Assembly: GCA_026388335.1 (NCBI GenBank)
Contig: JAPLJZ010000201.1
Coordinates: 1 to 43,154 of the forward strand
Reading direction: 5' to 3'
DNA: 43,154 bases
From: Deltaproteobacteria bacterium
Lineage (GTDB): Bacteria; Desulfobacterota; Syntrophia; Syntrophales; UBA8958
This document shows positions 7,558-43,154 of the stretch, one piece after another. The stretch's first letter is position 1; each line of letters begins with the position of its first letter. Under the pieces are notes generated by a model. The model was not told the DNA's origin and ran no database searches. It was given only the letters and a program-made list of their open reading frames with translations. The position numbers were made by a program, and so were the translations under genes.

Positions 7558-7562
7558 TTTGA

Positions 7563-7638: not shown

Positions 7639-7651
7639 GTGATGAGGTGGT

Positions 7652-7680: not shown

Positions 7681-7698
7681 GACATAAGCCCATTTACC

Positions 7699-7727
7699 TT
7701 GACAATACACATGGTTTTCATTAGAAT
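7699..7727 (+). promoter_or_regulatory. Sigma-70-type promoter of the cyclase-alr-ddl run
   Basis: TTGACA (7699-7704), a 17-base spacer and TAGAAT (7722-7727) make a near-consensus promoter 30 bases before the cyclase start. It is back to back with the tRNA promoter. Confidence 0.7.
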
Positions 7728-7757
7728 CCGAAAGTATTTTTTTCAGGAGGGATGACC

Positions 7758-10007
7758 ATGAAGGAACTGATGAAAAAACTGCTGGTCCTGTCACCCATCA
7801 AGATTTCCATTTTTCTGGTGATCCTTGCCCTTGCCCTGTTCTTCATGGATCTGCCCTTTCTTCGCTTCATGGAATTAAAATCACTGGATTTGCGGATGGT
7901 ATCCCGGGGGCAGTTGCCGGCGGGAGGCGAAGTCGTCATTGCCACGGTCGATGAAAAAAGTCTCAGCGAAATCGGCAGATGGCCCTGGCCAAGGACGGTG
8001 AGCGCACGACTTGTCGACAGCCTGAAGGGTTACGGCGCGAAGGCCGTGGGGTTTGATATTGTCTTTGCCGAGCCGGATCAGAATGCAAGTCTGCAAACCC
8101 TGTCTGAAATCTTTCAGGATGCAACCAAGATGGGGATTCAGGATCCTCGTCTTATGGGTCTTCTTGAGGATAAGGCAAAAGCGGCTAATACCGACGCCAT
8201 TCTTGCCAAGTCCATCGAAAAGGCAAAGAATGTGAGTCTCGGCTATTTTTTTCATACGACGGCAAAGGATGTCGGTTTTATCAGTGAAGAGTATATTGCC
8301 GCCAGCTCCGCTCTGATCGGCGGTTCCATGTATTCCATGGTGCGGGCGAAAGGCCAGACGGGAACATACAATATCATCCAGGCCTATGCACCGGTCCCGA
8401 GCATCAAGGAGATTGCGGAAGCAGGAGAAAACAGCGGCTATTTCAATGCCTTTCCCGATCCGGACGGCGTCGTCCGCTGGGCTCCGCTGGTCATCAAATT
8501 TCAGGATAATTATTTCTATCCTCTGCCTATTGCCATGCTCATGCAATATCTGGATTTCCCTATGATTGTCCTCAACCTTGCCGATTTCGGCGTAGACAGC
8601 GTCATGCTCGGGGACCTGCGCATCCCCACCGATGAAAGCGGGCGCCTGCTGATCAATTACCTGGGACCGGCCAAGACCTTCCCCCACTACTCCATTACCG
8701 ACATCCTGAACGGCCGTCTTTCTCCCGATCTTTTCAAGGGAAAGATCGTAGTTGTCGGCGCCACCGCCACTGGTATCTATGATCTTCGGGTGACCCCCTT
8801 CAGTCCCGTTTATCCCGGGGTGGAACTACATGCAACGGTAGTCGACAACATTCTGCACCGGAATTTTCTGGAACAATCGGCGTGGACGACCTTTATCGAT
8901 GTCTGTAACATCGCCGTGTTCGGCATGATCATGGGTATAGCGGTCCCGCGGGTCAAAGCGGTCCAGGGCATCATCCTCGCCCTGGTTCTCACCGGCGGTT
9001 TCATTGTGGGCAATACAATCGTTTTTGCCAAATTCAATACGTGGATCAATATGATCTATCCCGTCTTGACCATGATGACGATTTATTTGGTCATAACCGT
9101 ATACCGCTACTTTACGGAAGAACGGGAAAAGAAAAAGATTCGCGGCGCCTTTCAGTATTATCTGACGGCCTCGGTCATCACCGAGATCCTCAAAGACCCC
9201 AGTAAGTTGAAATTAGGTGGAGACAAGAAGAACCTGACGGTCATGTTTTCGGACATTCGGGGCTTCACGACGATCTCGGAAAAGCTGAGCCCCGAGGAAC
9301 TCGTCAGACTCCTTAACGAGTACCTGACGGTCATGACGGATATCGTCTTCAAATATGAGGGGCTTCTCGACAAGTACATCGGCGATGCCATTATGGCCGT
9401 ATTCGGCGCGCCACTGGAACAACCGGATCACGCCCTGCGCGGCTGCCGGACCGCCCTGGAGATGATGGCGGAGCTGAAGGTACTTCAGGAGAGGTGGGCC
9501 CAGGAGGGAAGACCCTACGTGGATATCGGCGTCGGGATCAACAGCGGCGACATGGTGGTCGGGAACATGGGTTCGAATATGCGCTTCGATTATACCGTCA
9601 TGGGCGACCATGTCAATCTCAGCTCCCGTCTCGAGGGGATTAACAAAGAGTATGGAACCCATATCGTGCTCAGCGAATTTACCTATGAGGTCGTCAGAGA
9701 AGAGATGTTCTGTCGGGAGCTCGACTCCGTGCGCGTCAAGGGTAAGAAGCTTCCTGTCAAGATCTATGAATTGATCTGTGAAAAGAAGGACGCGGCGGAA
9801 CATGAAGAATATATAAGGCGTTTTCATGAAGGTATGGAAAAATACAAAGAGGGCCGGTGGGATGAAGGCATTGCGGCGTTTAAAAGTGTCCTGGAGGTCC
9901 ATCCCGATGATCCGCCGGCAAATCTTTACATCCAGCGCTGCCAGGACTTGAAAGAGCAGCCCCCGGAAGGGGAGTGGGACGGCGTGTTCACCATGACAAG
10001 AAAGTAG
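7758..10007 (+). CDS. Adenylate cyclase with CHASE2 sensor domain
   Basis: A 749-residue membrane protein predicted to turn an extracytoplasmic signal into cAMP. ATG 7758 is chosen over 7752 because AGGAGG ends 7 bases before it. One N-terminal membrane span (about 12-32) precedes a periplasmic CHASE2 domain with the typical LDLRMVSRGQ, GRWPWPR and GAKAVGFDIVFAEPD segments. Three hydrophobic spans follow (about 377-460), then the catalytic domain. Metal residues are D499 (FSDIRGF) and D543 (YIGDAIMA); K539 and D611 fit ATP selection; N620 and R624 lie in VNLSSRLE. The C-terminal TPR-like tail ends in PPEGEWDGVF, matching the cyclase at 2738. The alanine racemase starts 18 bases later. Confidence 0.92.
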   Translation: MKELMKKLLVLSPIKISIFLVILALALFFMDLPFLRFMELKSLDLRMVSRGQLPAGGEVVIATVDEKSLSEIGRWPWPRTVSARLVDSLKGYGAKAVGFDIVFAEPDQNASLQTLSEIFQDATKMGIQDPRLMGLLEDKAKAANTDAILAKSIEKAKNVSLGYFFHTTAKDVGFISEEYIAASSALIGGSMYSMVRAKGQTGTYNIIQAYAPVPSIKEIAEAGENSGYFNAFPDPDGVVRWAPLVIKFQDNYFYPLPIAMLMQYLDFPMIVLNLADFGVDSVMLGDLRIPTDESGRLLINYLGPAKTFPHYSITDILNGRLSPDLFKGKIVVVGATATGIYDLRVTPFSPVYPGVELHATVVDNILHRNFLEQSAWTTFIDVCNIAVFGMIMGIAVPRVKAVQGIILALVLTGGFIVGNTIVFAKFNTWINMIYPVLTMMTIYLVITVYRYFTEEREKKKIRGAFQYYLTASVITEILKDPSKLKLGGDKKNLTVMFSDIRGFTTISEKLSPEELVRLLNEYLTVMTDIVFKYEGLLDKYIGDAIMAVFGAPLEQPDHALRGCRTALEMMAELKVLQERWAQEGRPYVDIGVGINSGDMVVGNMGSNMRFDYTVMGDHVNLSSRLEGINKEYGTHIVLSEFTYEVVREEMFCRELDSVRVKGKKLPVKIYELICEKKDAAEHEEYIRRFHEGMEKYKEGRWDEGIAAFKSVLEVHPDDPPANLYIQRCQDLKEQPPEGEWDGVFTMTRK

Positions 10008-11984: not shown

Positions 11985-12022
11985 AAATTGTTACAAGCTT
12001 TAAAGGAGGCAGCTTGGGTTTG

Positions 12023-13078
12023 ATGAATAAATTACGGGTGGGTATTATCCTGGGAGGGATGTCATCGGAGCGGGAGGTGTCCCTCAATAGCGGTCGGAAT
12101 GTCTACGACAATCTCGATCCGGAATACTATGCGGGGGTGCCGCTGTTTATGGACGGCGACGGCGGTCTCTGGGAGATCCCCTGGCAACTGGTATCTCAGA
12201 ATACGACGGTTGATATTGCGGAACGTCTGGCAAGCGAAGCCCGGAGAATGCCCTATGAAGCATTGAAAGAGAACATCGATTTTGCCTTTATTTCCCTCCA
12301 TGGTAAATACGGCGATGACGGATGTATCCAGGGTCTCCTCGAACTCCTCAGGATTCCCTATACAGGACCGGGGGTCCTGGCGTCCGCCCTGGGGATGGAC
12401 AAGCATATCCAGCAGAAAATATTGGCGGCGGCGGGGGTTAACGTCCCGAAAAGCATGGTTGTGTATGAAGATGAATGGTTGCGGGCACCGGAACAGGTGC
12501 AGAAAAAGTTGGGGGATAATTTTGCCCTGCCCTTTTTTGTCAAACCGGTCCGGGAGGGATCGAGCGTCGGGGTGGGCAAGATTCAGGATATGGCCGATCT
12601 GGATGGGGTTATAAAAGAGGCTTTGCGCTGGGACCGGGCGGTGCTGATCGAGGAATTTCTCGAAGGCATCGAGTTTTCCTGTATCGTTCTGGAGCGGGAC
12701 GGCGAGATCGCGCCCCTGGATCTGACAGAGATTTATCCCCAGAGCGCCTTTTACACCTACGACGACAAATACATGCCGGGACGTTGCCGTAAATTCACGC
12801 CGCCGAAAAACATTCCCCGGGAAACAGCGGAGATAATCAAGGCGGAAGCCACGCGAGCCTTTGAAGTTCTCGGGTTTCGATCCTATGGACGTATTGACGG
12901 GTTCTATCTGAAGGACGGCAGGATTTTTATTACCGATCCGAATTCGTCCTCAGGGATGGCCCCGTCTTCATTCTTTTTTGAGCAGGCGGCCAGCGCCGGG
13001 ATGCTACCGTCGATGATGATCTCGACATTAATTCAGAACGCCCTCACCATTCACAAGGGGAAAAAGGGGCCGTTGTAA
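12023..13078 (+). CDS. ddl: D-alanine-D-alanine ligase homologue 1
   Basis: An ATP-grasp ligase of 351 residues, predicted to join two D-alanines for the peptidoglycan stem. The start is uncertain: AAAGGAGG (12002-12009) precedes TTG 12014, TTG 12020 and ATG 12023; the ATG gives the usual MNKLRVGIILGG opening. The specificity triad of DdlB is intact: E16 (SSEREVSL), S180 (REGSSVG) and Y250 (DDKY). The metal-site loop is not normal: the usual LExNTxPGMT reads ITDPNSSSGMAPS here, giving a D in place of the glutamate and a changed NTxPG turn. It is followed 25 bases later by a second ligase gene. Confidence 0.88.
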   Translation: MNKLRVGIILGGMSSEREVSLNSGRNVYDNLDPEYYAGVPLFMDGDGGLWEIPWQLVSQNTTVDIAERLASEARRMPYEALKENIDFAFISLHGKYGDDGCIQGLLELLRIPYTGPGVLASALGMDKHIQQKILAAAGVNVPKSMVVYEDEWLRAPEQVQKKLGDNFALPFFVKPVREGSSVGVGKIQDMADLDGVIKEALRWDRAVLIEEFLEGIEFSCIVLERDGEIAPLDLTEIYPQSAFYTYDDKYMPGRCRKFTPPKNIPRETAEIIKAEATRAFEVLGFRSYGRIDGFYLKDGRIFITDPNSSSGMAPSSFFFEQAASAGMLPSMMISTLIQNALTIHKGKKGPL

Positions 13079-13103
13079 AATAATTATGGGGATGGGGTTG
13101 CTT

Positions 13104-14174
13104 ATGGTAGGTGAGATGGTAGAGAAAAAGCTCAGAGTCGCGGTCATCATGGGGGGGGTGTCCTCGGAGAAGGAGGTCTCCCTGGAGAGCGGCCGGAATA
13201 TCTTCAGCAAGATGGATCGGAAAAGATTCGATCCCTTAGCGGTGTTTATGGACTCTCAGGCCCACCTCTGGGATATCCCCTTGAAGCTCCTCATGAGAAA
13301 CAGTACCAGGGATATCGAAGATGATCTGGAAACAGAAGCCAGACGGATTCCCTATGAAGCACTGAATGACTGCACCGATCTCGTTTATCTGGGCCTGCAT
13401 GGCAAGTTTGGGGAAGACGGATGCATACAGGGACTCCTCGAGTTATTGCATATTCCCTATACTGGTTCGGGGGTTCTTGCCTCGGCCCTGGGAATGGATA
13501 AATATATATCCCGCCGTATCCTGTCCATGAGCGGCATTGACGTCCCCGCGACCATTCCGGTTTTCAGGCGGACGTGGGATGCGGAAGGGCGGGAAAAGAT
13601 TCTTGCCCGGGTGGAAAAAGAGACAGGTTTCCCTTGTATTGTCAAGCCCACCCGGGAAGGGTGCAGCACCGCCGTGAAGAAGGTTGTCTCCATTGAGGGA
13701 GTTGCCGCAGCTATAGAGTCTGCCTTCGCCTGGGACAATGTGGCCCTGGTGGAGGAATTCCTCGCCGGGACGGAAGTCACCTGCGGTGTCCTGGGGGACG
13801 ATCCGCCGCTGGCTCTCACACCGTCGGAAACGATTCCGACCGACGACATCCTTTCTCTTGAGGATAAGTTTCTTTACGGGCAGGGGGAAAACAAGACCCC
13901 GGCCCGGGTTCCTGATGATGTCCTGAGAAGAATTCAGGAGACAGCGATCGCGACTTTTCAAGCCCTGGACCTCACAGGTTATGCACGCATTGACATGTTT
14001 GTCCGGCCCGATGGGCGGATAGCTGTTCTCGAACCCAATACCCTGCCGGGGATGACGCCTTCGACAGTATTGTTTCATCAGGCCGCCGCCGCCGGCATTA
14101 CTCAGGCCGATTTCATCAGCCGGGTCATTGACGCGGCGTTGAAGGCCCATAGCAGTAAGCGGGGGCCGCTGTAG
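13104..14174 (+). CDS. D-alanine-D-alanine ligase homologue 2, altered specificity residues
   Basis: A second ATP-grasp ligase, 356 residues from ATG 13104 (starts at 13086 and 13116 are also possible). It is clearly paralogous to its neighbour: GGVSSEKEVSLESG, GLHGKFGEDGCIQGLLELL and PYTGSGVLASALGMDK occur at matching places. Its metal site is canonical (RIDMF, LEPNTLPGMT), but two of the three specificity residues differ: E22 is kept, the serine becomes C187 (REGCSTAV) and the tyrosine becomes F256 (EDKF). In known ligases a Phe at that position goes with D-Ala-D-lactate formation. The acceptor may therefore not be D-Ala, or the protein may act with homologue 1. The product remains to be shown. 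Confidence 0.85.
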   Translation: MVGEMVEKKLRVAVIMGGVSSEKEVSLESGRNIFSKMDRKRFDPLAVFMDSQAHLWDIPLKLLMRNSTRDIEDDLETEARRIPYEALNDCTDLVYLGLHGKFGEDGCIQGLLELLHIPYTGSGVLASALGMDKYISRRILSMSGIDVPATIPVFRRTWDAEGREKILARVEKETGFPCIVKPTREGCSTAVKKVVSIEGVAAAIESAFAWDNVALVEEFLAGTEVTCGVLGDDPPLALTPSETIPTDDILSLEDKFLYGQGENKTPARVPDDVLRRIQETAIATFQALDLTGYARIDMFVRPDGRIAVLEPNTLPGMTPSTVLFHQAAAAGITQADFISRVIDAALKAHSSKRGPL

Positions 14175-30613: not shown

Positions 30614-31048
30614 ATGAACGTCATTTTCTATTCGGCGCCAGGGACGTCACAGGGCGAAAAGCTACAACGGGTCATCGACATCCTTGTTCCGAGGAATAAC
30701 GTCGAGACGTTCCGAACTATTCCCTCTCTGTTACAGCGTCTGCACCAGCCGTTACCGGAAGCGGTGGTTTTTGTTTTCCTCGTCTCCAGCAGAGAGGAAT
30801 TGCTGGAGCTGGTCGAATATCAAGAATGGCTGAGAGACCGCAGGCTGATTCTGGTATTGCCGGACGACGACATGGAGACGATTTCCCGGGGACATGCCCT
30901 GAGACCAAGGTTCGTAACCTATGCGGAAAGTGATTTTATAGATATCTCTGCGGTTCTGGGAAAGATGCTCGGCGTCGGGGTCCTGCAAAGTTCGTCGCTG
31001 GTCTCGACAAGGTTGCCGGAAATTCTGGGAAACATTCATAATGAGTAG
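30614..31048 (+). CDS. Uncharacterised protein, possible pseudo-receiver
   Basis: A 144-residue cytosolic protein with no family I recognise. Alternating hydrophobic strands (MNVIFYSAPG, AVVFVFLVSS, RLILVLPDDD, PRFVTYAESD) separated by helices fit an alpha/beta receiver-like fold. However, the expected phosphoacceptor Asp after strand 3 is missing (VFVFLVSSREEL), so it would be a phosphorylation-independent pseudo-receiver. It sits between the receptor gene and a soluble receptor-like gene in the chemotaxis cluster. The start ATG 30614 is 20 bases after the receptor stop, with only a weak GGTGG binding site. Confidence 0.7.
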   Translation: MNVIFYSAPGTSQGEKLQRVIDILVPRNNVETFRTIPSLLQRLHQPLPEAVVFVFLVSSREELLELVEYQEWLRDRRLILVLPDDDMETISRGHALRPRFVTYAESDFIDISAVLGKMLGVGVLQSSSLVSTRLPEILGNIHNE

Positions 31049-31073
31049 CTGTGAAAAAGGAAAGGAGTCTCAT

Positions 31074-32999
31074 TTGAAGCTGATGCTGCCGGCACTGTTT
31101 AAGGGATTCTGGAAGACTAATATGTCTCCCAAGCGGGATTGGCGCCATTGCCTGGATCAGGCCGGCGAACGGATCATGAAAATGACGACCGGCACCGAAG
31201 GGGAATTTCTGCGCATTGGCGAGAGACTTCAGGAGATTCATCAACGGGCTCGGGCCATGTCGCAATTATCCGGCGCCGCTGCGGAACGCTTGTCAGGCGA
31301 CACAATCGTATCCGAGATGGAAGGGCTGAAAAGGATTCTTCAGCAGATCGGAGCTGAGAACGAATCTTCCCTGGGCGGGTCAGCAACCATTGCCATGATT
31401 CTCCAGCGCTTGAAAGAGGTGCATGGATATCTGGAGTCTTTCGAAAAGATCGTGAGAAATCTCCGGGTCCTCTGCAATCTGATCAGAATCGAAAGCGCCC
31501 GCCTGGGTAACCGACATGAAGGTTTCGCCGCCCTTGGCGACGATGTGCAGGGGCTCATTGCCCATGTGGATACCGGGTCGTCAACCCTACGGATGCGGAC
31601 GGAAGAAATCATCCGGCTCCTGGCGGACCATCTGGTCCTTGCCCAAGAATTTGAAACCTCACAGCAGGAAAAGGCGAAGCAGATACTCGATCAGTCAAAC
31701 AGCAGTATCCGGGAGATGGAGATGCGGCACGAGCTTTCCTCTCAGGTGATCAAAGATGCGGCGACGCGTTGGAAACAGATATCGGGAAGCGTTGGCGAAG
31801 TGGTGGCATCTCTCCAGTTTCATGACATCACCCGGCAAAGGATGGAACATGTCCGTGAAGCCCTGATGGAACTTATGGGACATCAAAAGAATACTTCGGA
31901 GCCCTTGGAACATGCATCTCGTGTGGCATGGCCACTGCGCAGCCGCCCGGGAAACAACGGGAAACGCGATACTACAGAAGTAATGTCCAAGGCGGCGGCG
32001 ACCTGTGAACTACAGGCGGCGCAATTGCATCATGCCCGGGAGGATCTCGCCGGGGCCGTGGAGCGGATCGGCCGGAATCTCGACCGCATCTCTTCCGAAA
32101 TATCCGTGATGTCGGAAGACATTCAGAAGGCAGCGGGGGCCTCGGGAGAAAATGAACAGACCTACTTCTCTGAGCTGGAAGCATCCCTTGCCAAGCTGAT
32201 GGAAGCTATCGGCGAGTTTACGGAGATGAATCGGAAGATGTCGGGGTCGATGTTGCAGGTCGCCCATGCCATGGGGGAGATGACGTCTTTCATCCGGGAC
32301 ATCCAGAAGGTGGGGATAGCAATGCGGGTGACCGCCCTCAATGCCTGCATTCACGCCGCCCATATCGGCGATAGCGGTCTGGCCCTGGGAGTCCTGGCCG
32401 AGTCCATCCATCAGTTGTCTGCCGATACCTCAGGGAGCATTGACAGCATATCTACTAATCTCGCGAGCATCGGCGGAGAGGCGGAATCACTTTCCCGGCA
32501 GGGGGGGCGGTACGATCAAGAACGTCTGGAGAGGGAAAACGGGACGCTTCTGGACCAGGTTAAATCGCTCATGAAACCACTGCGGCAGATGGACGAGGAA
32601 CTATCCGGCCTGTTGCAGCGGTTCGACAGTGACGGGGCCGCCCTGCAACAGGAGATCGAAGAAATGGCCGCCCATGTGCGGGTGCACGATGGGATGGACA
32701 GGGGGATCGGTGCGGTTGTGACGTCCCTGAAGGAGATGACGGTTGAGATACGTGCTGCTCTTCCGGCAGGATCTGGCCTGGCCAAGGCGGTGGCGCCTGG
32801 CGATTTGGCAACCCGCTATACCATGGAGAAGGAACGGAAGATTCACATGGACATTGTGGCGTCAGCGCCTGCTGCCGCAATAGGCATCTTGCCAATGCCG
32901 GCGGAAGACAGGGGAGAAGGGAAGGTGGAAATTGCCGAATCTTCCCCGGCGGCGGGGGGCGATGATGGGGATCTTGGGGACAATGTTGAATTATTTTGA
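31074..32999 (+). CDS. Soluble receptor-like protein with two degenerate MCP tips
   Basis: A long, mostly helical cytosolic protein of about 641 residues. TTG 31074 is preferred: AAGGAG (31062-31067) ends 6 bases before it; ATG 31041 has no such site. There is no membrane span. Two segments resemble the chemoreceptor hairpin tip but are altered: NLIRIESARLGNRHEGFAAL (about 135-155) and MRVTALNACIHAAHIGDSGL (about 417-436), each followed by a GDDV/AESI helix. The word LQFHDITRQRMEHV (about 255) recurs in receptor-like proteins. Both tips lack parts of the CheA/CheW contact consensus, so it may be a decoy, adaptor or CheZ-like factor. Confidence 0.7.
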   Translation: MKLMLPALFKGFWKTNMSPKRDWRHCLDQAGERIMKMTTGTEGEFLRIGERLQEIHQRARAMSQLSGAAAERLSGDTIVSEMEGLKRILQQIGAENESSLGGSATIAMILQRLKEVHGYLESFEKIVRNLRVLCNLIRIESARLGNRHEGFAALGDDVQGLIAHVDTGSSTLRMRTEEIIRLLADHLVLAQEFETSQQEKAKQILDQSNSSIREMEMRHELSSQVIKDAATRWKQISGSVGEVVASLQFHDITRQRMEHVREALMELMGHQKNTSEPLEHASRVAWPLRSRPGNNGKRDTTEVMSKAAATCELQAAQLHHAREDLAGAVERIGRNLDRISSEISVMSEDIQKAAGASGENEQTYFSELEASLAKLMEAIGEFTEMNRKMSGSMLQVAHAMGEMTSFIRDIQKVGIAMRVTALNACIHAAHIGDSGLALGVLAESIHQLSADTSGSIDSISTNLASIGGEAESLSRQGGRYDQERLERENGTLLDQVKSLMKPLRQMDEELSGLLQRFDSDGAALQQEIEEMAAHVRVHDGMDRGIGAVVTSLKEMTVEIRAALPAGSGLAKAVAPGDLATRYTMEKERKIHMDIVASAPAAAIGILPMPAEDRGEGKVEIAESSPAAGGDDGDLGDNVELF

Positions 33000-33028
33000 G
33001 CTGATGGAAATGGGGAGGGGACTGGATA

Positions 33029-33373
33029 ATGTTTGAAATTACGGGAGGAGAAGACAGGGCGACCTTGACGGTCAGCGGGGAGGTAACCATGCAGAACGCG
33101 CTGGCCTTCCGAGACGCCCTGAAGGAATGGATCGAAAAGGGCGATACCCTGGATCTGAATCTGGGAGGGGTGGCCGAGGCCGACCTGACGTGTCTGCAAC
33201 TTATCTGTTCGGCCCACCGGTCCCTGATGAACACGAAAAAAACCCTGACCGTGATGGGGGAGCTTCCGGAATCCATCAGCAAGGCAGCGCAGGAGGCGGG
33301 ATTTGTCAGGGAACGGGGATGCCGCGGGGAGGAAAGTCACAGCTGCATATGGGTGATGAGGCCTGAGAGATGA
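33029..33373 (+). CDS. STAS-domain protein
   Basis: A 114-residue single STAS (anti-sigma antagonist-like) domain. Landmarks are ATLTVSGEVTMQNALAFRDAL, LDLNLGGVAEADLTCLQLI and a C-terminal strand LTVMGEL. The residue where SpoIIAA-type proteins are phosphorylated is Thr here (ADLTCLQ), so switch by phosphorylation is possible. STAS proteins of this kind are frequent in deltaproteobacterial chemosensory clusters, but their partner is unknown. GGAGGGG lies 8 bases before the start. Just after it, 33365-33395 holds two near-direct 14-base repeats ahead of cheY. Confidence 0.85.
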   Translation: MFEITGGEDRATLTVSGEVTMQNALAFRDALKEWIEKGDTLDLNLGGVAEADLTCLQLICSAHRSLMNTKKTLTVMGELPESISKAAQEAGFVRERGCRGEESHSCIWVMRPER

Positions 33374-33390
33374 GAAATGAGGGATGAAAA

Positions 33391-33756
33391 ATGAGTAAAG
33401 TCATCATGACGGTGGATGATTCCGCCAGTGTACGCCAGATGGTCAGTTTTACCATTCGTGACGCCGGATACGAGGTGATCGAAGCAGTGGACGGAAGGGA
33501 CGCCTTATCCAAGGTCAATGGCCGGACTATTCATATGGTGATCACGGATCTCAATATGCCGAATCTTGACGGCATTGGCCTGATCCGGGAATTGAGAACG
33601 CTTCCGGCGTTCAAGTTCACGCCCATCATCATGCTGACCACGGAATCTCAGGCGGAAAAAAAACAGGATGGCAAGGCGGCAGGGGCGACCGGGTGGATCA
33701 TAAAACCCTTTAAGCCGGAACAACTGCTGGCTGTAATCCGGAAAGTGATTGGATAA
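33391..33756 (+). CDS. cheY: CheY-type response regulator
   Basis: A 121-residue CheY-like receiver. Acidic pocket VDDS, phosphoacceptor D53 in MVITDLNMPNLDG, switch threonine in MLTTESQ and lysine in IIKPFKPEQL. The length is that of a minimal CheY. Its stop overlaps the cheA start by one base (TAATG), so it is translationally coupled to its likely kinase. Either the flagellar motor or another output could be the target. Confidence 0.93.
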   Translation: MSKVIMTVDDSASVRQMVSFTIRDAGYEVIEAVDGRDALSKVNGRTIHMVITDLNMPNLDGIGLIRELRTLPAFKFTPIIMLTTESQAEKKQDGKAAGATGWIIKPFKPEQLLAVIRKVIG

Positions 33757-35900
33757 TGGATCAATTCAGAGAAGCGTTCAGAGAAGAAGCCCATGAACTC
33801 CTCGCGGAGCTCGAAACGGCCCTGCTGGAACTGGAAAAGGATCCGGGCGCCGCCGATCTGATTGGCCGGGTCTTCCGGGCCATGCACACCCTCAAAGGGT
33901 CAAGCGGCATGTTTGGGTTCGATGACATCAACAAACTGACCCATGATATCGAAAATGTTTACGACCTAGTCCGGGGGGGAAAGATTCCCGTCACCAGCCC
34001 CCTGATCGACATGACGTTGCGGGCCTGCGATGAGGTAAAAAAGATGATCGAACCGCGGGAAGAGGGCGACGCCGGTCCGGACCTCAAGGCGGCGCTTGCC
34101 GTCAGCGCATCTTTCCGCACCTATCTGGAAAGCTCCCGCGCGGCATCCGTACCCGATGCGGCCCGCGATCAAGCGGGAAAGCAGACTGATGAAAGTAATG
34201 ATACGGATAAAGACAAAGACCGCACCATGACCTATCGGATCTCCTTTCGACCCGCTGCGGACATCTTTTTATCCGGAACTAACCCGGTCCTGCTGCTGAA
34301 CGAAGTCCGCGATCTGGGCCTCTGCCATATCATAGCCAAGACGGAACAGATTCCCCCTCTGGACGAGATTAATCCCGAGGCCTGTTACACGGGCTGGGAG
34401 ATCCTCTTGACATCGGAGCACGATATCAACGCCATCCGGGACGTTTTTATCTTCGTGGAGGATCGATGCACCCTGAATATAGAAGAAATACCTGATGATT
34501 CAGGGGCGGAGGCGGACAAGGAGGACCGGAAGCTGGGAGAGATTCTGGTCGAGCGGGGAGATATTTCGGGATCAGATCTACGCAAAATATTGGATTCACA
34601 TAAGAAAATCGGTGAGATCCTTGTTGAATCGGGGCTGGTCGGGGCGGAAAAGGTGGAAGCCGCCCTTGTTGAACAGATACATACCCGGGAGGTAAAGCAG
34701 CGCAAACAGGTCGCCGAGACGGCAGCCAGCATCCGTGTCCCGGCGGAAAAACTCGACCGCCTCGTTAATATGGTGGGGGAACTGGTTACCGTTCAATCCC
34801 GCCTGTCCCAGATCTCTACGCAACGGAATGATCCGCTCCTTATTCAAGTAGCGGAAGAGGTGGAGCGTCTCATGGCGGAACTCCGGGACAATACCATGAG
34901 TATCCGCATGCTCCCGATCGGCAGCACCTTCAGCCGTTTCGAACGCCTGGTCCGGGATCTCTCGGCGGAATTGGGGAGAGAGGTGGTTCTGAAAACGGAG
35001 GGGGCCGAAACGGAGTTGGACAAGACGGTCATCGAGAAGCTCAATGACCCCCTGGTTCATCTGATCAGAAACTGCATCGATCATGGCATCGAACCCCCCC
35101 ACATCCGGGAAGCTGCGGGAAAACCCCGTCAGGGAACGGTGCTGCTGGCCGCCGAGCATTCCGGGGCCCATGTCGTGATCACCATCCGGGACGATGGGGC
35201 CGGCCTCGACGGGGAAGCGATCCGGGCGAAGGCTATCGAGCGAGGTCTCATCGCTCCGGACACACAATTGTCGGAAAAGGACCTCTATGCACTTATCTTG
35301 CAACCGGGATTTTCGACGGCCAAAAAGGTTTCCAGTGTATCCGGGCGCGGCGTCGGTATGGACGTGGTGAAGCGGGGGATAGAAACTCTCCAGGGGACGA
35401 TCGAGATTGTCAGCGAAAAGGGGCGGGGATCATCGATCATCCTCAAGCTGCCCCTGACCCTGGCGATCATCGACGGCCTGTTGGTCAGAATCGGCGACGA
35501 TTATTTCATTATGCCCCTGGCGGCAATCGAAGAATGCGTCGAGTTGACCGAGGCGGATATTGCCCGGGCTCATGGGAAGTGCATTGCCGAAATACGGGGG
35601 GAAATAGTGCCGTATCTGCGCTTGCGCGATGCTTTCGCTTTTATAGGAGAGCGTCCGGCGATTGAGCAGATTGTGACCACCCGGATTAACGGCAGCCGTG
35701 TCGGCTTCGTCGTCGATCAGGTAGTCGGCGGTCATCAGACGGTGATCAAGAACCTCGGCCGGATGTGCAGGGATGTGCATAGCGTTTCCGGGGCCACCAT
35801 CCTGGGCGACGGGACGGTCGCCCTGATCCTTGATCTTCCGAAAATCGTGCAACAGGCGGAGCAAGACGAAGCGACGAACAGAAAGCAAAGGGGGTATTGA
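33756..35900 (+). CDS. cheA: Chemotaxis histidine kinase CheA with PilB-N-like linker
   Basis: A 714-residue chemotaxis kinase. The Hpt domain has H44 in RAMHTLKGSSGMFGF. After a charged linker comes a P2-like region (about 155-250) and then a double motif LGEILVERGDISGSDL and IGEILVESGLVGAEKV (about 262-310), like the N-domain of type II/IV secretion ATPases. The dimerisation helices begin at VPAEKLDRLVNMVGEL. The ATPase part has HLIRNCIDHGIE, DDGAGLD, GFSTAKKV and GRGVGMDVV, and the C-terminal CheW-like domain ends near residue 700. All kinase motifs are present. No separate cheW is in the window. The stop overlaps the cheR start. Confidence 0.95.
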   Translation: MDQFREAFREEAHELLAELETALLELEKDPGAADLIGRVFRAMHTLKGSSGMFGFDDINKLTHDIENVYDLVRGGKIPVTSPLIDMTLRACDEVKKMIEPREEGDAGPDLKAALAVSASFRTYLESSRAASVPDAARDQAGKQTDESNDTDKDKDRTMTYRISFRPAADIFLSGTNPVLLLNEVRDLGLCHIIAKTEQIPPLDEINPEACYTGWEILLTSEHDINAIRDVFIFVEDRCTLNIEEIPDDSGAEADKEDRKLGEILVERGDISGSDLRKILDSHKKIGEILVESGLVGAEKVEAALVEQIHTREVKQRKQVAETAASIRVPAEKLDRLVNMVGELVTVQSRLSQISTQRNDPLLIQVAEEVERLMAELRDNTMSIRMLPIGSTFSRFERLVRDLSAELGREVVLKTEGAETELDKTVIEKLNDPLVHLIRNCIDHGIEPPHIREAAGKPRQGTVLLAAEHSGAHVVITIRDDGAGLDGEAIRAKAIERGLIAPDTQLSEKDLYALILQPGFSTAKKVSSVSGRGVGMDVVKRGIETLQGTIEIVSEKGRGSSIILKLPLTLAIIDGLLVRIGDDYFIMPLAAIEECVELTEADIARAHGKCIAEIRGEIVPYLRLRDAFAFIGERPAIEQIVTTRINGSRVGFVVDQVVGGHQTVIKNLGRMCRDVHSVSGATILGDGTVALILDLPKIVQQAEQDEATNRKQRGY

Positions 35901-36508
35901 TGGCCTTTACTTTTTTCTTCCGCGACCTCGATCCCCTGACGCACGCGGTTCGCTTTTTGATGAGTGCCGCCAGTGGCCGCAGCCGGGTTCGCATCTGGGA
36001 TGCCGGCTGCGCCATGGGGCAGGAACCTTATACCCTCGCCATCCTCTTGGCGGAGACCATGAATCCCTTTGCCTTCCGGAATGTCCAGATCTTCGCGACG
36101 GATTACGACGCGCCGCTTCTGGAGAGATTGAAAGAAAGCGTCTATCCCTGGGAAGAACTCCAAAGGATTCCTGAGGAGCTGTTCCAAAAGTATTTTCAGC
36201 CTGCGGAAAGGGAAGGGTACTTCCGGCTTATTGACCAGATCAGACAATGCATCCAGCCGAGCTGGCACGACCTCTTGACCTATAAACCGCTTCGGGACGG
36301 TTTCAGCCTGGTCTTATGTAAGAACGTCATGTTGCACTTCCAGCCCGAGCAGCGGGTGAAAGTGATCCGGATGTTTCACAGCGCCCTGGAGCCGGGGGGG
36401 ATTTTTGTCACCGAGCACACGCAGAAGATGCCTGGGGAGGCCTCCCATCTTTTCGAGCAGTTGCTGTCGGACTGTCAGGTATTTAGAAAGATTGAGGCGA
36501 CGACGTGA
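35900..36508 (+). CDS. cheR: CheR-type receptor methyltransferase, short form
   Basis: A 202-residue SAM-dependent methyltransferase that should methylate glutamates of the receptors. SAM-binding motif IWDAGCAMGQEPYTLAI matches the CheR signature, with Q in place of the usual second E. The motif IFATDYD follows, and LVLCKNVMLHF and GGIFVTEHTQ complete the catalytic domain. The all-helical N-terminal subdomain of ordinary CheR (about 80 residues) is missing, so docking to receptors may differ. ATG 35900 shares one base with the cheA stop (TGATG). The stop overlaps the next start (GTGA). No cheB is seen in the window. Confidence 0.88.
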   Translation: MAFTFFFRDLDPLTHAVRFLMSAASGRSRVRIWDAGCAMGQEPYTLAILLAETMNPFAFRNVQIFATDYDAPLLERLKESVYPWEELQRIPEELFQKYFQPAEREGYFRLIDQIRQCIQPSWHDLLTYKPLRDGFSLVLCKNVMLHFQPEQRVKVIRMFHSALEPGGIFVTEHTQKMPGEASHLFEQLLSDCQVFRKIEATT

Positions 36509-37137
36509 AGATTATCTCTGTCCCCGGCAACGGCAATATTTACAGCTCGAATGTCTATCTGGTCCAGGGGGATTGGAAGCGCATCGAGGACATTAACACG
36601 CTGGTGGACGTGGGGAACGATCCCGCCATCCTGGAACAGCTTGAGAAAATGTCTACGGGGGTAGGGAAAAAGAAGGTCGAGCAGGTGGTGCTGACGCACA
36701 GTCATTCGGATCATTCGGCCCTTTTGCCCATGATCAGGGAACGATATAAACCTAAAGTGTTCGCCTTTTCTCCCTATCTGGAAGGCGTTGACCACGTCCT
36801 TACCCATGGACAGCGCCTGCGGATGGGCGACCGGGACTTCGAGGTCATTCACACTACCGGACACAGCGAGGACTCCATTTCTCTGTTCAACGAAGACGAA
36901 GGTGTCCTCTTTGTCGGCGACGCGCAGGTGATCGTTCGTTCCTCGGGGGGAGAGTATGAGGAAGATTTCGTCCAAGCCATGAAGAACATCTGCCAGCGCA
37001 ATGTGAAGAAGATCTATTTTGGGCACGGCGACCCGATCTGTCAGGGGGTGCAGAGACTGTTGATTGATTCCCTGCACAATATCCGCAACGCCAATAGACG
37101 GTTGAAACAGGTCATGAAGGAGGCAGGGGCATACTGA
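36505..37137 (+). CDS. Metallo-beta-lactamase-fold protein of the chemotaxis cluster
   Basis: A 210-residue protein with all metal ligands of a binuclear metallo-beta-lactamase-fold hydrolase: THSHSDH, later H in HTTGHSEDS, bridging D in LFVGDAQV and final H in YFGHGDP. The GTG start (36505) overlaps the cheR stop, so it belongs to the cluster. A relative in other chemotaxis operons is the diiron oxygen sensor ODP, but that protein has the flavodiiron HxExDH pattern, whereas here HxHxDH favours zinc hydrolase chemistry. The substrate is unknown; a signalling ester or thioester are only guesses. Confidence 0.85.
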
Positions 37138-37211
37138 TTATCTTGATCAATCGGGAGAAAGAATCAGGATACGACAAAAAAGATAATGGCTATGAAGAGG
37201 GGGGAAAAGCA

Positions 37212-39599
37212 ATGTTGGCAAAAATGAAACTCACATCGCGGATTGTCCTGCAATCCGTCATCATCATCATGAGTTTTGTCCTGGCACTGGGATGGCTGCA
37301 TTATCATCTGAAGGGAAAACTGTATGATGAAAAAATCAAGGCGACAAAGCATGTGGTCGATGTCGCTTACAGTACTCTCGCGCAATATGATGAGCGCGTG
37401 AAGAAGGGGGAATTAGAAATGGAGGAAGCACGGAAAAGGGCGGCCTCAGATGTGCAAAACCTCCGGTATGCAGAGAAAGAGTACTTCTGGATCAACGATC
37501 TTGTTCCACGGATGGTCATGCATCCCTACAAACCCGAGCTGAACGGCAAAGATCTATCGGAAGAGAAGGATCCCAACGGGAAAAGACTTTTTGTAGAATT
37601 TGTCAACGTGGGTAAGGAGAAGGGAGAAGGCTTAGTCGAGTATATGTGGCCCAAGCAGGGCGAAACGAAACCGGTCCCTAAAATTTCCTATGTTAAGCTT
37701 TTCAAACCCTGGGGATGGATCGTCGGTTCGGGAATCTACGTCGATGATTTGCAGAAGGAGTTTGCAACTATATTCTATATTATCCTGGGTCTCATCCTGG
37801 TGATTAGTATCGGTGGCCTGGCCTGTTCTATCCTGATGACCCGCAGCATTACAAAACCTCTTAAAGACCTCCTTGCCGCCACGGACAAAATAGCAGCGGG
37901 TGATATGAATGTAACCCTGGAGATAAAAAGCAGGGACGAAGTTGGCACGCTTGCCCAATCCTTCAAAACAATGGTCAATAACATCAATCTGCTCATCACC
38001 GATGCCGATCTGCTCTCGAAGGCCGCCGTGGAAGGAAAGCTCGCCACCCGGGCCGATGCTTCCAAGCACCAGGGCGACTTCAGAAAGATCGTCCAGGGAG
38101 TCAATGACACCCTCGACGCCGTCATCGGGCCTCTGAATGTAGCCGCCGAGTATGTGGACCGGATCTCCAAGGGCGACATCCCCCCGAAGATCACCGACAG
38201 CTATAACGGTGACTTCAACGAGATCAAGAACAACCTCAACCAGTGCATCGACGCCGTTAACGCGCTGGTTGCCGATGTGAACATCCTCTCGAAGGCGGCA
38301 GTGGAAGGCAAACTGGCGACCCGTGCCGATGCCGCCAAGCACCAGGGCGACTTCCAGAAGATCGTCGCCGGTGTCAACGACACCCTCGACTCCGTCATCG
38401 GACCTCTTAATGTCGCCGCCGAGTATGTAGACCGGATCTCCAAGGGCGACATCCCCCCGAAGATCACCGACAGCTATAACGGTGACTTCAACGAGATCAA
38501 GAACAACCTCAATGTCCTTATCGAGGCGATGAATGAGATTACCGGTGTGGGCGAGCAGATTGCCGATGGCAATCTGATGGTGGAAATTAGCAAACGATCG
38601 GAACAGGATAAACTCATGCAGGCACTGATTGTCATGCTGGAAAAACTGACCGAGGTCGTCACAAACGTTCAGAATGCGACGGAGCAGGTAGGACAGGGAA
38701 GTCAGGAGATGAGCTCGAAAACCGAGCAGATTTCCCAGGGAGCAACGGAACAGGCGGCTTCAGCGGAAGAGGTGTCTTCTTCCATGGAAGAAATGGCCGC
38801 AACCATCATGCAAAACGCCGATAACGCGCAACAGACGGAGCAGATTGCCGTTAAATCCGCCGCCGACGCCCGTGAAGGCGGCAAGGCAGTAGAAGAGACG
38901 GTGACGGCCATGAGGGAAATCGCCAACAAGATTTCCATCATCGAGGAAATCGCCCGTCAGACCAACATGCTGGCCCTCAATGCAGCGATTGAAGCGGCGC
39001 GGGCAGGCGAGCACGGAAAAGGATTTGCCGTCGTTGCCGCCGAGGTGAGACGCCTGGCGGAGAGAAGCCAGACGGCGGCGGGAGAAATCAACCGCTTGTC
39101 CGCCTCCAGCGTTCAGATTGCCGAAAAGGCGGGTCAGATGCTTGCTCAGATCGTCCCGGCGATTCAGAAGACGGCCGATCTGGTTCAGGAGATCAACGCC
39201 GCCAGCAGTGAACAGAAGAACGGCGCCGATCAGATCAACAAGGCCATCCAGCAGTTGGACCAGGTGATTCAGCAGAATGCGGCGGCGGCGGAAGAAATGG
39301 CCGCTACGTCGGGAGAACTGACGGAACAGGCCGACCAGCTCCAGACAGCGGTTGCGTTCTTCAGGACGGATGACCAAGCCGGAAACAAGCGAGACGGAAA
39401 GAAGAGCGCCCGCATGAAAGAAACTACTGGCGGCTATAAGAGCGTGGTGCCCGGCTTGATAATTCGGACCGCGGACAAACGCCTGGCTGCAAGTGCCGCC
39501 TCGCCAAAAACAACCGTAAAACCATCAGGTTATGCGCTGGACCTCACGGATAGTAAACCCAAAAGAGATGCTCAAGACGCAGAGTTCGAGAAATATTAG
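37212..39599 (+). CDS. Methyl-accepting chemotaxis protein, Cache sensor and HAMP repeats
   Basis: A 795-residue receptor. ATG 37212 follows GAGGGGGG by 7 bases; the open frame upstream has only a TTG. Span 1 is about residues 12-34; the periplasmic single-Cache domain (about 35-180) has [25 protein letters not shown] split by motif spacing typical of the family and ends [15 protein letters not shown]. Span 2 (about 182-207) leads to a HAMP ([10 protein letters not shown]). Two 91-residue units follow (VEGK at 273 and 364), each apparently a HAMP pair. The signalling tip is near 579-620 ([22 protein letters not shown]). The protein ends AEFEKY, where EFEKY fits a CheR docking pentapeptide. 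Confidence 0.93.
37974..38519 (+). repeat. Two tandem 273-bp repeats (HAMP-pair units)
   Basis: Units 37974-38246 and 38247-38519. The second half is almost identical in DNA: across about 93 bases starting at GCCGAGTATGT (38145 and 38418) I count one difference, much closer than third-codon drift would allow. This suggests recent duplication or gene conversion. Confidence 0.85.
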
Positions 39600-39825
39600 G
39601 GGGTATCATGGCTTGCTTCGGACTCTTAAAAAACGCGATTCCAAGAAAGAAAAACGAAATTGCAACCTTATAATGAAGGGAAGGAGTGATGAGAAAAAAG
39701 TTGATATTGATGTTCGTGGACATGTCCGGCGCATGCCGCGTTGACGGGGCAAACGAGAAACCGGTCGGGGGAAGACCCGGCCATACGGAAAGACTTCGAC
39801 TGGAAACCAAGATAAGGAGGGAGAT
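39600..39825 (+). other. Leader between the two poly-HAMP receptor genes
   Basis: There is no convincing gene here. An ORF of 50 codons (39689-39841, MRKKLILMFVDMSG onward) has AAGGAG only 2 bases before its ATG and overlaps the receptor start; I doubt it is expressed. Two hairpins are visible: CGGC-GCAT-GCCG near 39730 and GGTCGGG...CCCGGCC near 39765-39785. They may belong to an mRNA leader. Confidence 0.35.
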
Positions 39826-42800
39826 ATGTTTAAAAACGTGAAAATCGGTGCAAAGCTTATGGGCGGATTCTCATTGGCGGTGCTTATAATGGTTATCGTC
39901 GCCGCCGGTGGTTACTGGGGTGCGCACTCATTAGCGAAGAAAACGGAAGAAATTGCCGCTAACAGGTTGCCGAGTATCATAGGGCTTGGGCTGGTGAGCG
40001 AGGCACAGATAGCTATACAGAGAGCTGAACGTGCTATATTGATCCCGGAGTTTTTTAAGGATGAGAAAGAAAGGAACCATCAGATCAAAAATGCCGAGGA
40101 TGCTTGGAAAAAGGTGGAGAAGGGCTGGAAGATCTATGAGCCCCTCCCTCAGACAAAAGAAGAAGAAAAGCTCTGGAAGCAGTTTGTCCCGGTCTGGGAG
40201 CAGTGGAAGGATTTGCACAAACAGGTCTTTACCCTTGTAAAGAGCGGCAAACGGGATGAAGCGCTGGCCCTCTCAACTGGAAAGGCGCGGGAAGCACTCA
40301 ATGGTTCGGAAAAGCTTCTCGATGAACTGGTAACTATGAACGAGAATCTTGCTGCGGAAGAGCACAAAGCGGCCACCGCAATGGCAGCATCGGTGAAAAT
40401 GCTCTTGTTGATTGTTGCGCTGATCGGTGTCGTCCTGGCCATACTCTCAGCTGTATTCATCTCCCGGGACATCAGTAAAATCCTCAATGCGCTGCTGGCG
40501 GAAATCAAAACCCTGGTTGCTGCTGCCGTAGGCGGAAAACTTGCCACAAGAGCCGATCCGGAGAAAATTAACTTTGAATTCAGGGGAATTGCCACGGGTC
40601 TTAACGAAACCCTCGATGCGGTGATCGGGCCGCTGAACGTGGCGGCGGAGTACGTGGACCGGATCTCGAAGGGTGATATCCCCCCGAAGATCACGGACAG
40701 CTACAACGGTGATTTCAACGAGATCAAGAATAACCTGAACCAAGCCATCGATGCGGTGAATGCGCTGGTGGCCGACGCCAATGTGCTGTCGAAGGCGGCG
40801 GTGGAAGGTAAACTCGCCACCCGTGCCGATGCAACGAAGCATCAGGGCGACTTCCGGAAGATCGTAGAAGGGGTGAACCAGACCCTGGATGCGGTAATCG
40901 GACCGTTGAATGTAGCAGCGGAGTATGTGGACCGGATCTCGAAGGGCGATATTCCCCCGAAGATCACGGACAGCTATAACGGCGACTTCAACGAGATCAA
41001 GAACAATCTGAACCAGTGCATCGACGCTGTAAACGTGTTGGTGGCTGACGCCAACATGCTCTCGAAGGCAGCGGTGGAAGGCAAACTGGCGACCCGGGCC
41101 GACGCCGCGAAGCATCAGGGTGACTTCCGGAAGATCGTGGAAGGGGTGAACCAGACGCTGGATGCGGTCATTGGGCCGTTGAATGTAGCAGCGGAGTACG
41201 TGGACCGGATCTCCAAGGGCGATCTGCCCCCGAAGATCACGGATGCATACAATGGAGACTTCAACGAGATCAAGAATAACCTGAACAACTGTATCGACAA
41301 CATCAACGCCCTGGTGGGCGACGCCGGGCTGCTGGTCACGGCGGCGGTTGAAGGGAAGCTGGCCACGAGAGCGGATGCAACAAAGCATCAGGGTGACTTC
41401 CGGAAGATCGTGGAAGGTGTCAATCAGACGCTGGACCGGGTGGTGGGATTTATCGATGATATGCCGACGCCGGCAATGATTATCGATAATGATTACAGCA
41501 TTATGTATATGAACAAGATTGGGGCGCAAGTAGGGAATCGGCAGCCGAAAGACCTTCTGGGCACGAAGTGCTTCGAACATTTTCGGACCAGCGACTGCCG
41601 TACCGCCAAGTGTGCATGTGACCGGTCAATGCAGTCGGGTTCGGGGGCCACCAGTGAAACGGACGCCCACCCAGGTACGCTCAATCTTGATATCTCGTAT
41701 TCGGCTACACCGGTAAAAAACAGAGAAGGGAAAGTCATCGGGGCGTTTGAAGTGGTGACGGACCAGACGGCAGTCAAGCAGGCGATGCGATTGGCGGATA
41801 AGGTAAAGACATTTCAAGATAATGAAGTGGCGATACTGCTGACTGGACTGGAAGCTATGGCGCAGGGAAAGATGGCGTTTGAACTTGCGGACGTAGCGGG
41901 GGATTCAGATACGGCGGTGGTCAAGCAGGCGTTTGACCGGCTGAAGACGGCGGTCAGCACTTGCCGAGATGCGGTCAATGCTATGACTACAGACGCCGGT
42001 GTGCTGGTGAAGGCGGCAGTGGAGGGTAAGCTTGCCACCCGTGCCGATGCGACGAAGCATCAGGGCGACTTCCGGAAGATTGTGGAAGGGGTAAATCAGA
42101 CCCTGGATGCGGTCATTGGACCGTTGAATGTAGCGGCGGAGTATGTGGACCGGATTTCGAAGGGTGAGACTCCTCCCGTCATTACTGATAACTATAACGG
42201 AGACTTCAATGAGATCAAAAATAATCTAAATGCCTGTATAGAGGCGACGGCTCAACAAGCTAATGCAGCACAAAAAGTGGCCGAAGGGGATCTGTCCGTT
42301 CAGATTCACGTAAGATGCGAACAGGATATTCTTGCCAAAAGCATGAATAATGTCATTGGAGCCTTAAAAGATTTGCAGAAGGAAATGTCCAGACTTACGA
42401 TTGCTTCCCGTGAAGGCTTGCTTTCCGAGCGCGGCAAGACCGAAAACTTCAAGGGCGCCTATGCGGAAGTGGTGACGGGTGTTAATGAGATGCTGGACGC
42501 GATCCTTCTTCCCATCGGTGAGGGTAATCGTATCTTGAGCTTGATATGTGGTGGAAATCTCCGGGAAAAGATTGAGATTGCCTGCAAAGGTGATCATGAG
42601 CGAATGAAGGACGCAATAAACGGCGTACATACCTGGTTAAGCGAGCTGGTTGCCTATGTTACCAAGATCGCCAATGGTGATCTGACGGCAACAATGTCTA
42701 AAGCATCTGAACAGGATCAAATCCACGAGTGGCTAGTATTGATGAAGAACAACATCAACGCCCTGGTGGGCGACGCCGGGATGCTTGTCACAGCAGCAGT

Positions 42801-43154
42801 GGAAGGGAAGCTGGCTACAAGAGCCGATGCGACGAAACATCAGGGCGATTACCGTAAGATTGTGGAAGGGGTGAACCAGACCCTCGATGCGGTGATCGGG
42901 CCGCTGAATGTAGCTGCGGAGTACGTGGACCGGATTTCGAAGGGCGATCTGCCTCCGAAGATCACCGATGCTTATAATGGCGACTTCAACGAGATCAAGA
43001 ACAACCTTAACAATTGTATCGACAACATTAACGCCCTGGTGGGCGACGCTGGTCTGCTGGTAACGGCAGCGGTGGAAGGTAAACTGGCCACCCGTGCCGA
43101 TGCAACGAAGCATCAGGGTGATTTCCAGAAGATTGTCAAGGGAGTCAACCAGAC
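39826..43154 (+). CDS. Giant poly-HAMP chemoreceptor with embedded PAS (runs off right edge)
   Basis: At least 1109 codons, open to the window end; AAGGAGG precedes the start by 5 bases. Span 1 is about residues 11-33; the four-helix-bundle sensor (about 34-185) has NRLPSIIGLGLVSEAQ and [18 protein letters not shown], as in the receptor at 28957; span 2 is about 188-212. Then come 91-residue HAMP-pair units with VEGK-type words at 235 (divergent), 326, 417 and 508, a PAS domain at about 539-640, another unit at 732, divergent HAMPs (about 800-970) and further units at 992 and 1083. The PAS has a cysteine cluster C582, C591, C596, C598. The signalling domain lies beyond the window, so a kinase output is not excluded. 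Confidence 0.88.
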   Translation, partial: MFKNVKIGAKLMGGFSLAVLIMVIVAAGGYWGAHSLAKKTEEIAANRLPSIIGLGLVSEAQIAIQRAERAILIPEFFKDEKERNHQIKNAEDAWKKVEKGWKIYEPLPQTKEEEKLWKQFVPVWEQWKDLHKQVFTLVKSGKRDEALALSTGKAREALNGSEKLLDELVTMNENLAAEEHKAATAMAASVKMLLLIVALIGVVLAILSAVFISRDISKILNALLAEIKTLVAAAVGGKLATRADPEKINFEFRGIATGLNETLDAVIGPLNVAAEYVDRISKGDIPPKITDSYNGDFNEIKNNLNQAIDAVNALVADANVLSKAAVEGKLATRADATKHQGDFRKIVEGVNQTLDAVIGPLNVAAEYVDRISKGDIPPKITDSYNGDFNEIKNNLNQCIDAVNVLVADANMLSKAAVEGKLATRADAAKHQGDFRKIVEGVNQTLDAVIGPLNVAAEYVDRISKGDLPPKITDAYNGDFNEIKNNLNNCIDNINALVGDAGLLVTAAVEGKLATRADATKHQGDFRKIVEGVNQTLDRVVGFIDDMPTPAMIIDNDYSIMYMNKIGAQVGNRQPKDLLGTKCFEHFRTSDCRTAKCACDRSMQSGSGATSETDAHPGTLNLDISYSATPVKNREGKVIGAFEVVTDQTAVKQAMRLADKVKTFQDNEVAILLTGLEAMAQGKMAFELADVAGDSDTAVVKQAFDRLKTAVSTCRDAVNAMTTDAGVLVKAAVEGKLATRADATKHQGDFRKIVEGVNQTLDAVIGPLNVAAEYVDRISKGETPPVITDNYNGDFNEIKNNLNACIEATAQQANAAQKVAEGDLSVQIHVRCEQDILAKSMNNVIGALKDLQKEMSRLTIASREGLLSERGKTENFKGAYAEVVTGVNEMLDAILLPIGEGNRILSLICGGNLREKIEIACKGDHERMKDAINGVHTWLSELVAYVTKIANGDLTATMSKASEQDQIHEWLVLMKNNINALVGDAGMLVTAAVEGKLATRADATKHQGDYRKIVEGVNQTLDAVIGPLNVAAEYVDRISKGDLPPKITDAYNGDFNEIKNNLNNCIDNINALVGDAGLLVTAAVEGKLATRADATKHQGDFQKIVKGVNQ
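40474..41436 (+). repeat. Tandem 273-bp repeats, first block of giant receptor
   Basis: Units start at 40474 (5' half divergent), 40747, 41020 and 41293; the last is cut after its first half by the PAS insert. The period is exactly 273 bases. They match the units in the previous gene, for example GACTTCAACGAGATCAAGAA occurs in most copies. Confidence 0.85.
41965..42237 (+). repeat. Single 273-bp repeat unit after the PAS domain
   Basis: One HAMP-pair unit, with a diverged second half (GETPPVITDNYNGDF instead of [15 protein letters not shown]). Confidence 0.8.
42745..43154 (+). repeat. 273-bp repeats, last block, cut by window edge
   Basis: One full unit (42745-43017) and half of a second (from 43018). 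Both keep the NINALVGDAG opening also found in the unit at 41293, so this block resembles that copy more than the others. Confidence 0.8.

Follow-up and report, generated by a model that had tools for sequence, protein, structure and literature searches.

Poly-HAMP chains built from a 91-residue unit in two adjacent chemoreceptors of a Syntrophales bacterium

We analyzed a 43,154-base stretch of DNA (the window) from Deltaproteobacteria bacterium (Desulfobacterota, Syntrophales; GenBank assembly GCA_026388335.1, contig JAPLJZ010000201.1), which is the entire contig C39 of a draft genome of 4.06 Mb in 268 contigs. Its right-hand end carries two adjacent plus-strand genes for methyl-accepting chemotaxis proteins (MCPs), here gene 1 and gene 2, and both contain a 273-bp repeat encoding a 91-aa unit that is two HAMP domains in series. 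It is probable that the two chemoreceptors, encoded in one operon, feed different signals to the same type of output through these poly-HAMP chains. More tentatively, we suggest that the unit next to the membrane might be a specialized coupler in which another residue, usually Phe (INFEFR), takes the place of a stacking glycine, giving a third input route beside a DExG HAMP or a soluble start; the interior of the chain would turn over, while the end couplers would keep their identity across phyla.

A preliminary inspection of the letters alone (the sequence-only reading) had reported a 273-base repeat in two neighbouring genes. This was confirmed: nine in-register copies and one diverged copy are distributed over the two genes (Table 1), and a search of the 91-aa unit against its own genome returned best matches down to E 5e-56, which rules out chance. 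The exact 273-base period claimed for it holds inside runs of units and breaks at two steps in gene 2, of 672 and 780 bp, because other domains, one of them a PAS domain, lie between the units there.

The HAMP pair proposed for each unit was borne out by Pfam HAMP_2 coverage of both proteins (E 1.6e-71 in gene 1 and 1.4e-200 in gene 2), by an AlphaFold model and by matches to Aer2 poly-HAMP structures. Both PF18947 and PF00672 matched in each gene, confirming several HAMPs in series. The model, a monomer of two units (40741-41346) predicted from an alignment of 50 sequences, had a mean predicted local distance difference test score of 94.1, with helices at 2-21, 37-67, 81-112, 127-158 and 172-201 that form four helix-connector-helix HAMPs linked by continuous helices. 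The top three Foldseek matches were Aer2 poly-HAMP chains (probability 1.00, E 0.003-0.02), and the top VIA matches were 3lnr (Z 10.5 over 143 residues, root-mean-square deviation 9.0) and 4i3m (Z 10.0 over 136 residues, deviation 3.7). Profile matches to solved structures included 9trk (E 4.6e-23) and Aer2 3vol (E 1.1e-8). The best sequence match to a solved structure was again the histidine-kinase HAMP array 9trk (E 9.5e-16), so that, at the domain level, the suggested resemblance to HAMP-repeat kinases of the fungal type stands. Conservation of the unit is high, with 28 of its 91 positions at 90% or more, polar positions included. A PHROGs search returned only families without function.

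Pfam also confirmed that both proteins are membrane chemoreceptors, with sCache or 4HB sensors and MCP outputs. Gene 1, for which an ATG at 37212, 23 codons into the reading frame, is the likelier start, encodes an sCache_2 sensor, a transmembrane helix, a canonical HAMP, two 91-aa di-HAMP units and the MCP output. Gene 2, when joined to its continuation on another contig, encodes a 4HB sensor, a HAMP chain with an inserted PAS domain and the MCP output. About 15 HAMPs are recognizable in gene 2, and linkers that Pfam alone does not recognize may hold more. Its first unit, the cap, follows the transmembrane helix immediately and reads KINFEFRG, the Phe codon lying at 40573-40575.

A scan in which each species was represented by one genome supplied the relatives, 79 named loci picked by similarity to gene 2. 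The unit was found in Desulfuromonadales and other deltaproteobacterial lineages, Bacteroidota, Riflebacteria, Holophagaceae, Ignavibacteriales, Firmicutes, Spirochaetes and methanogens. Identity of the best unit to the window had a median of 86% across these loci, a value biased upward by their selection. Of roughly 450 steps between units, 383 measured exactly 91 residues, and copy number ranged from 2 to 14 units per protein, so the window arrays are not distinctive in length, contrary to what had been supposed. Within the window's order the unit occurred in only 9 of 149 genomes at E 1e-10, and within the phylum HAMP_2 occurred in 32 of 395 genomes at E 1e-15, a patchy distribution such as would be expected from frequent gene exchange or loss. 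One relative with a one-contig genome (G244; loci L169, L170) encodes three receptors with different N-terminal sensors, nearly identical outputs and units that are 99.6-100% identical in matching positions, which may reflect sensor swapping or conversion among paralogues and shows that arrays can be common to different sensors. Three loci of the window's own genus (L142, L143, L144) place a poly-HAMP receptor after CheR and a metallo-β-lactamase (MBL)-fold gene, and these receptors start without a recognizable transmembrane helix. In the within-genus comparison of copy number, their arrays were broken off at contig ends or interrupted by a stretch of N.

The position of a unit within its chain was then compared across 54 complete receptors, each of four units or more. 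First units found their best match in another genome's first unit 35 times (permutation mean 8.3, maximum 21), and last units in other genomes' last unit 30 times (permutation mean 8.4, maximum 20). The excess of own-array matches in interior over end units was 0.40 (permutation 0.07, standard deviation 0.04); in all of these tests labels were shuffled within each receptor, which leaves shared ancestry between receptors in. The pattern fits fixed end couplers with an interior that turns over.

A single residue distinguishes one class of first units. Unit position 16 is a lone glycine at the connector-AS2 junction of the unit's first HAMP. Interior units of relatives carry Gly16 in 325 of 328 cases and Gly61 in 327 of 328, last units carry Gly16 in 52 of 54, and the window units retain both glycines with the sole exception of Gly16 in the gene 2 cap. 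In a first sample, none of the first units that immediately follow a transmembrane helix had Gly16 (0/27), and all of those with a HAMP between had it (48/48); the latter comprise 35 direct cases and 13 after register correction, the 13 apparent exceptions being partial profile matches on the membrane HAMP whose true first unit has Gly in each. In a second sample, from which loci sharing sequence with the first were set aside, the counts were 0/16 after a transmembrane helix against 23/23 after a HAMP, and 79/79 in later units. Pooled, Gly16 occurs in 71/71 first units after a membrane-proximal HAMP and in 0/43 after a transmembrane helix. Gene 1, which places a DExG HAMP ahead of its array, keeps Gly16 in its first unit, and the gene 2 cap has Phe. 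In Aer2, HAMP1 gains coupling to a membrane receptor when DExG is added, and the lone glycine of divergent HAMPs has been proposed to serve packing in chains (PMC3570549). Judged from sequence, the junction pattern appears to carry this distinction over to receptors found in nature and to indicate a third wiring, gene 2 suggesting that a chain may couple to the membrane while lacking the canonical DExG motif there.

From the observed HAMP pairs, domain order, operon, copy age and position-specific junction residue in relatives, we infer the rest of a mechanism as follows. The input of gene 1 would be its sCache domain, and those of gene 2 its 4HB domain and internal PAS. The receptor dimer would form a stiff parallel stack whose HAMPs toggle between two conformers, as proposed for Aer2, and the change would be relayed down the stack to the kinase-control tip. 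Membrane signals would enter gene 1 through the canonical DExG HAMP ahead of the array, and gene 2 through the cap unit, in which Phe may replace the stacking glycine because no HAMP lies above it. A PAS domain placed between the two HAMPs of one unit would add an input from the cytoplasm at a point along the stack. Interior units would be largely interchangeable relays, gained, lost or homogenized over long times, and the first and last units fixed couplers to membrane and output. Alternatively, the chain might be mainly a mechanical spacer, in which copy number sets the reach of the output tip for array height and HAMP signal processing is incidental. The wide range of copy number and the apparent interchangeability of interior units are what a spacer would show; nevertheless, the strong conservation of the unit, extending to polar positions, and the insertion of PAS domains inside chains, suggestive of signal passage through them, make this explanation unlikely.

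Several points weigh against the relay mechanism and its membrane coupler. A fold Z near 10 can be reached by unrelated helical repeats, yet the top eight VIA rows were all HAMP. The gene 2 linkers at 41779-42027 and 42670-42810, searched alone, gave no HAMP match. Among soluble receptors of the second sample, Gly16 was present in 7 of 11 and missing from 4 of 11, so that what counts may be the lack of a HAMP above and not the membrane as such, and the transmembrane helices behind the counts were assigned by hydropathy only. The chief caveat is that the junction pattern may stem from descent of the cap units from a few ancestors and not from repeated selection. Taken further, cap units without Gly16 would be a mere legacy of one old receptor, functionally meaningless. 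Cap units are indeed alike across genomes; on the other hand, the substitute residue varies (F, E, R, P, C, L, D, S), and Gly appears in none of the 43 caps from receptors of many phyla. We regard such a legacy as conceivable, if rather doubtful.

The copies within the window are old. Near-identical DNA copies had been claimed, and the unit-by-unit comparison contradicts this: identity between full units tops out at 87% (41074 versus 42799; 98% at the protein level, synonymous divergence dS about 0.86), and the remaining pairs of full or near-full units share 63-84% of their DNA, mostly with dS of about 1 or higher, or saturated. An 83-nt tract shared by the two units of gene 1 is different: codons for the same residue are identical in 27/27 cases inside it and 28/43 outside (permutation 0/20000), a likely trace of gene conversion or late duplication. 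Apart from this tract, the units are by sequence comparison old copies kept alike by protein-level selection rather than by recent copying. Recent expansion, contraction or gene conversion now shaping the array in this genome would accord with the 83-nt tract, with the near-identical array units of the three G244 paralogues and with a 224-residue module present or absent among close relatives; given dS around 1 for most unit pairs in the window and DNA identity of at most 87%, we find it improbable. The ongoing expansion and conversion initially inferred thus lacks support in the window, the tract excepted, and is supported elsewhere in the family, in the G244 paralogues.

The array had been taken to end at 43154, which is the contig end within the array and not the end of the gene. 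The final 141 nt match the end of contig C209 (8571 bases, reverse strand) exactly and are found in full nowhere else in the assembly. Across this join the gene 2 reading frame continues to 1507 aa, the C-terminal MCP domain is 77% identical to that of gene 1, and CheW and PilZ-like genes follow. The window's first 141 bases are likewise common to contig C12. With 141 nt shared at both contig ends (1-141 and 43014-43154), this length is most likely the k-mer size of a de Bruijn assembler (k = 141), and the overlap most likely an adjacency in its graph. Exact k-mer overlaps at contig ends usually mark graph branches, so the exact copy number of gene 2 is provisional. The array or its copy number might accordingly be suspected as an assembly artefact, the contig ending inside the array with 141 nt in common with C209, and contigs of relatives often ending inside arrays too. 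Against this, the units differ from one another at many sites and hence are not one read pile copied, the reading frame remains open over the C39-C209 join with CheW following as in relatives, the other window end shares 141 nt with another contig in the same way, and the one-contig genome carries arrays of the same design, which are therefore not solely products of draft assembly. We consider an artefact very improbable. The misassembly check is thus favourable for the design of the arrays, and provisional for the gene 2 count.

The PAS_4 domain of gene 2 splits a unit between its two HAMPs and carries the Cys motif KC-x8-C-x4-C-A-C, possibly a metal or redox site. This motif was found in about 38 places (40 rows, some from the same gene), all poly-HAMP receptors, of several bacterial phyla and of methanogens. 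The inserted PAS gave no match to solved structures at E 0.01. Three close Trichlorobacter/Geobacteraceae receptors (L078, L088, L102) have N parts that are 93-96% identical and differ by a module of ~225 residues (half unit, Cys-PAS and linker) that is absent in L102. The genome of Trichlorobacter thiogenes belongs to the window's phylum: G345 of the phylum search and G528, the source of L078, matched on identical contigs and coordinates.

Genes 1 and 2 close an operon of chemosensory genes (31041-37137, plus strand; Table 1). The gene order CheA, CheR, MBL, poly-HAMP receptor, CheW is seen again in relatives, with CheW after the receptor in, for example, L050 (87% identical), L073, L094 and L105. 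The MBL-fold protein between CheR and gene 1 has an HSHSDH motif and further His/Asp ligand motifs, and its relatives occur in 29 of the 79 poly-HAMP loci. Its assignment as an ODP di-iron protein was not retained (Pfam ODP 26.8 bits, just below the 27.2 cut-off). Elsewhere in the window, two adjoining open reading frames (12014-13078 and 13086-14174) have similar starts (GGMSSEREVSL and GGVSSEKEVSL) and by eye resemble a duplicated D-Ala-D-Ala ligase-type gene.

Table 1. Features of the two poly-HAMP receptor genes and their operon (positions in the window)
Feature	Position	Strand	Remark
Gene 1 chemoreceptor	37143-39599	+	818 aa from TTG
sCache_2 sensor, gene 1	37326-37772	+	Pfam E 1.3e-42
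Canonical membrane-proximal HAMP, gene 1	37833-37988	+	DEVG (DExG) motif; Pfam, sequence
Gene 1 unit 1	38028-38300	+	two HAMPs
83-nt tract in gene 1 unit 1	38157-38239	+	identical to 38430-38512 of unit 2
Gene 1 unit 2	38301-38546	+	last; leads into output linker
MCP signalling domain, gene 1	38844-39266	+	Pfam (PF00015) E 2.5e-35
Gene 2 chemoreceptor	39826-43154	+	cut by contig end; 1507 aa if joined to C209 (L032)
4HB_MCP_1 sensor, gene 2	39835-40386	+	Pfam E 1.5e-31
Gene 2 cap unit	40528-40800	+	immediately after transmembrane helix; Phe for junction Gly16
Gene 2 units 2 and 3	40801-41346	+	start at 40801 and 41074; profile matches, AlphaFold of 40741-41346
Gene 2 unit 4 (half)	41347-41454	+	first HAMP only
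PAS_4 within array	41455-41778	+	Cys motif KCFEHFRTSDCRTAKCAC; Pfam
Gene 2 unit 5	42019-42255	+	
Diverged HAMP_2 unit, gene 2	42409-42681	+	
Gene 2 unit 6	42799-43071	+	
Gene 2 unit 7	43072-43154	+	cut; continues on C209
141-nt exact overlap	43014-43154	+	with end of C209 (reverse strand)
MCP-like	31041-32999	+	
STAS	33029-33373	+	
CheY-like	33391-33756	+	
CheA	33756-35900	+	
CheR	35897-36508	+	
MBL-fold	36505-37137	+	between CheR and gene 1

Poly-HAMP receptors are a known kind, and the window genes belong to it. The slot pattern and the junction rule look less familiar; studies of 2010 by Dunin-Horkawicz and Lupas and by Airola, which reportedly defined poly-HAMP classes, may already describe the junction rule. 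Debate continues over how HAMPs transmit a signal and what sets its sign, and a natural series of receptors with one relay unit and varied copy number, input wiring and sensor would allow tests in which units are counted or exchanged. Should the junction rule be true, a single residue would tell HAMPs fed by a membrane helix from those fed by another HAMP, an aid to annotating and engineering receptors. Since arrays break short-read assemblies, poly-HAMP receptors are probably under-reported.

Several known systems resemble the window receptors in part. Canonical Tar/Tsr-type receptors share the order of sensor, transmembrane helix, HAMP and MCP, and gene 1 likewise has a DExG HAMP at the membrane; they differ in having one HAMP only, and gene 2 lacks the membrane DExG HAMP. 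FrzCD of Myxococcus xanthus also has more than one HAMP before an MCP output, but it is cytoplasmic and DNA-binding and has two HAMPs only (PMC12077210). Fungal group III (NIK1-type) and bacterial repeat kinases (9trk, 9trj, L145) contain tandem HAMP pairs of ~90 residues with a detectable sequence relation, whereas their output is a kinase and not an MCP. The L145 locus (5572-8281), in a genome from the window's order, holds a histidine kinase gene whose HAMP repeats have a period of 92 and are like those of fungal NIK1; its units score 6-28 bits against the unit profile, a low similarity. Identity with a group III/NIK1-type histidine kinase was rejected, as the output domain of the window genes is MCPsignal; so was the Vibrio Aer2 equivalog NF041847 (NCBIfam), with 295 and 275 bits against a 1200-bit cut-off. 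The top structure matches came from Aer2 of Pseudomonas aeruginosa (3lnr, 4i3m, 4i44, 3vol), which, like the window genes, has serial divergent HAMPs with one junction glycine, a PAS domain between HAMP stretches and an MCP output. Aer2 differs in that it is soluble, its HAMPs number 3 + 2 and its PAS is of the haem type (PMC3570549), whereas the window receptors are membrane-anchored, arrange their HAMPs as a conserved 91-aa pair and, in gene 2, combine about 15 or more HAMPs with a Cys-rich PAS.

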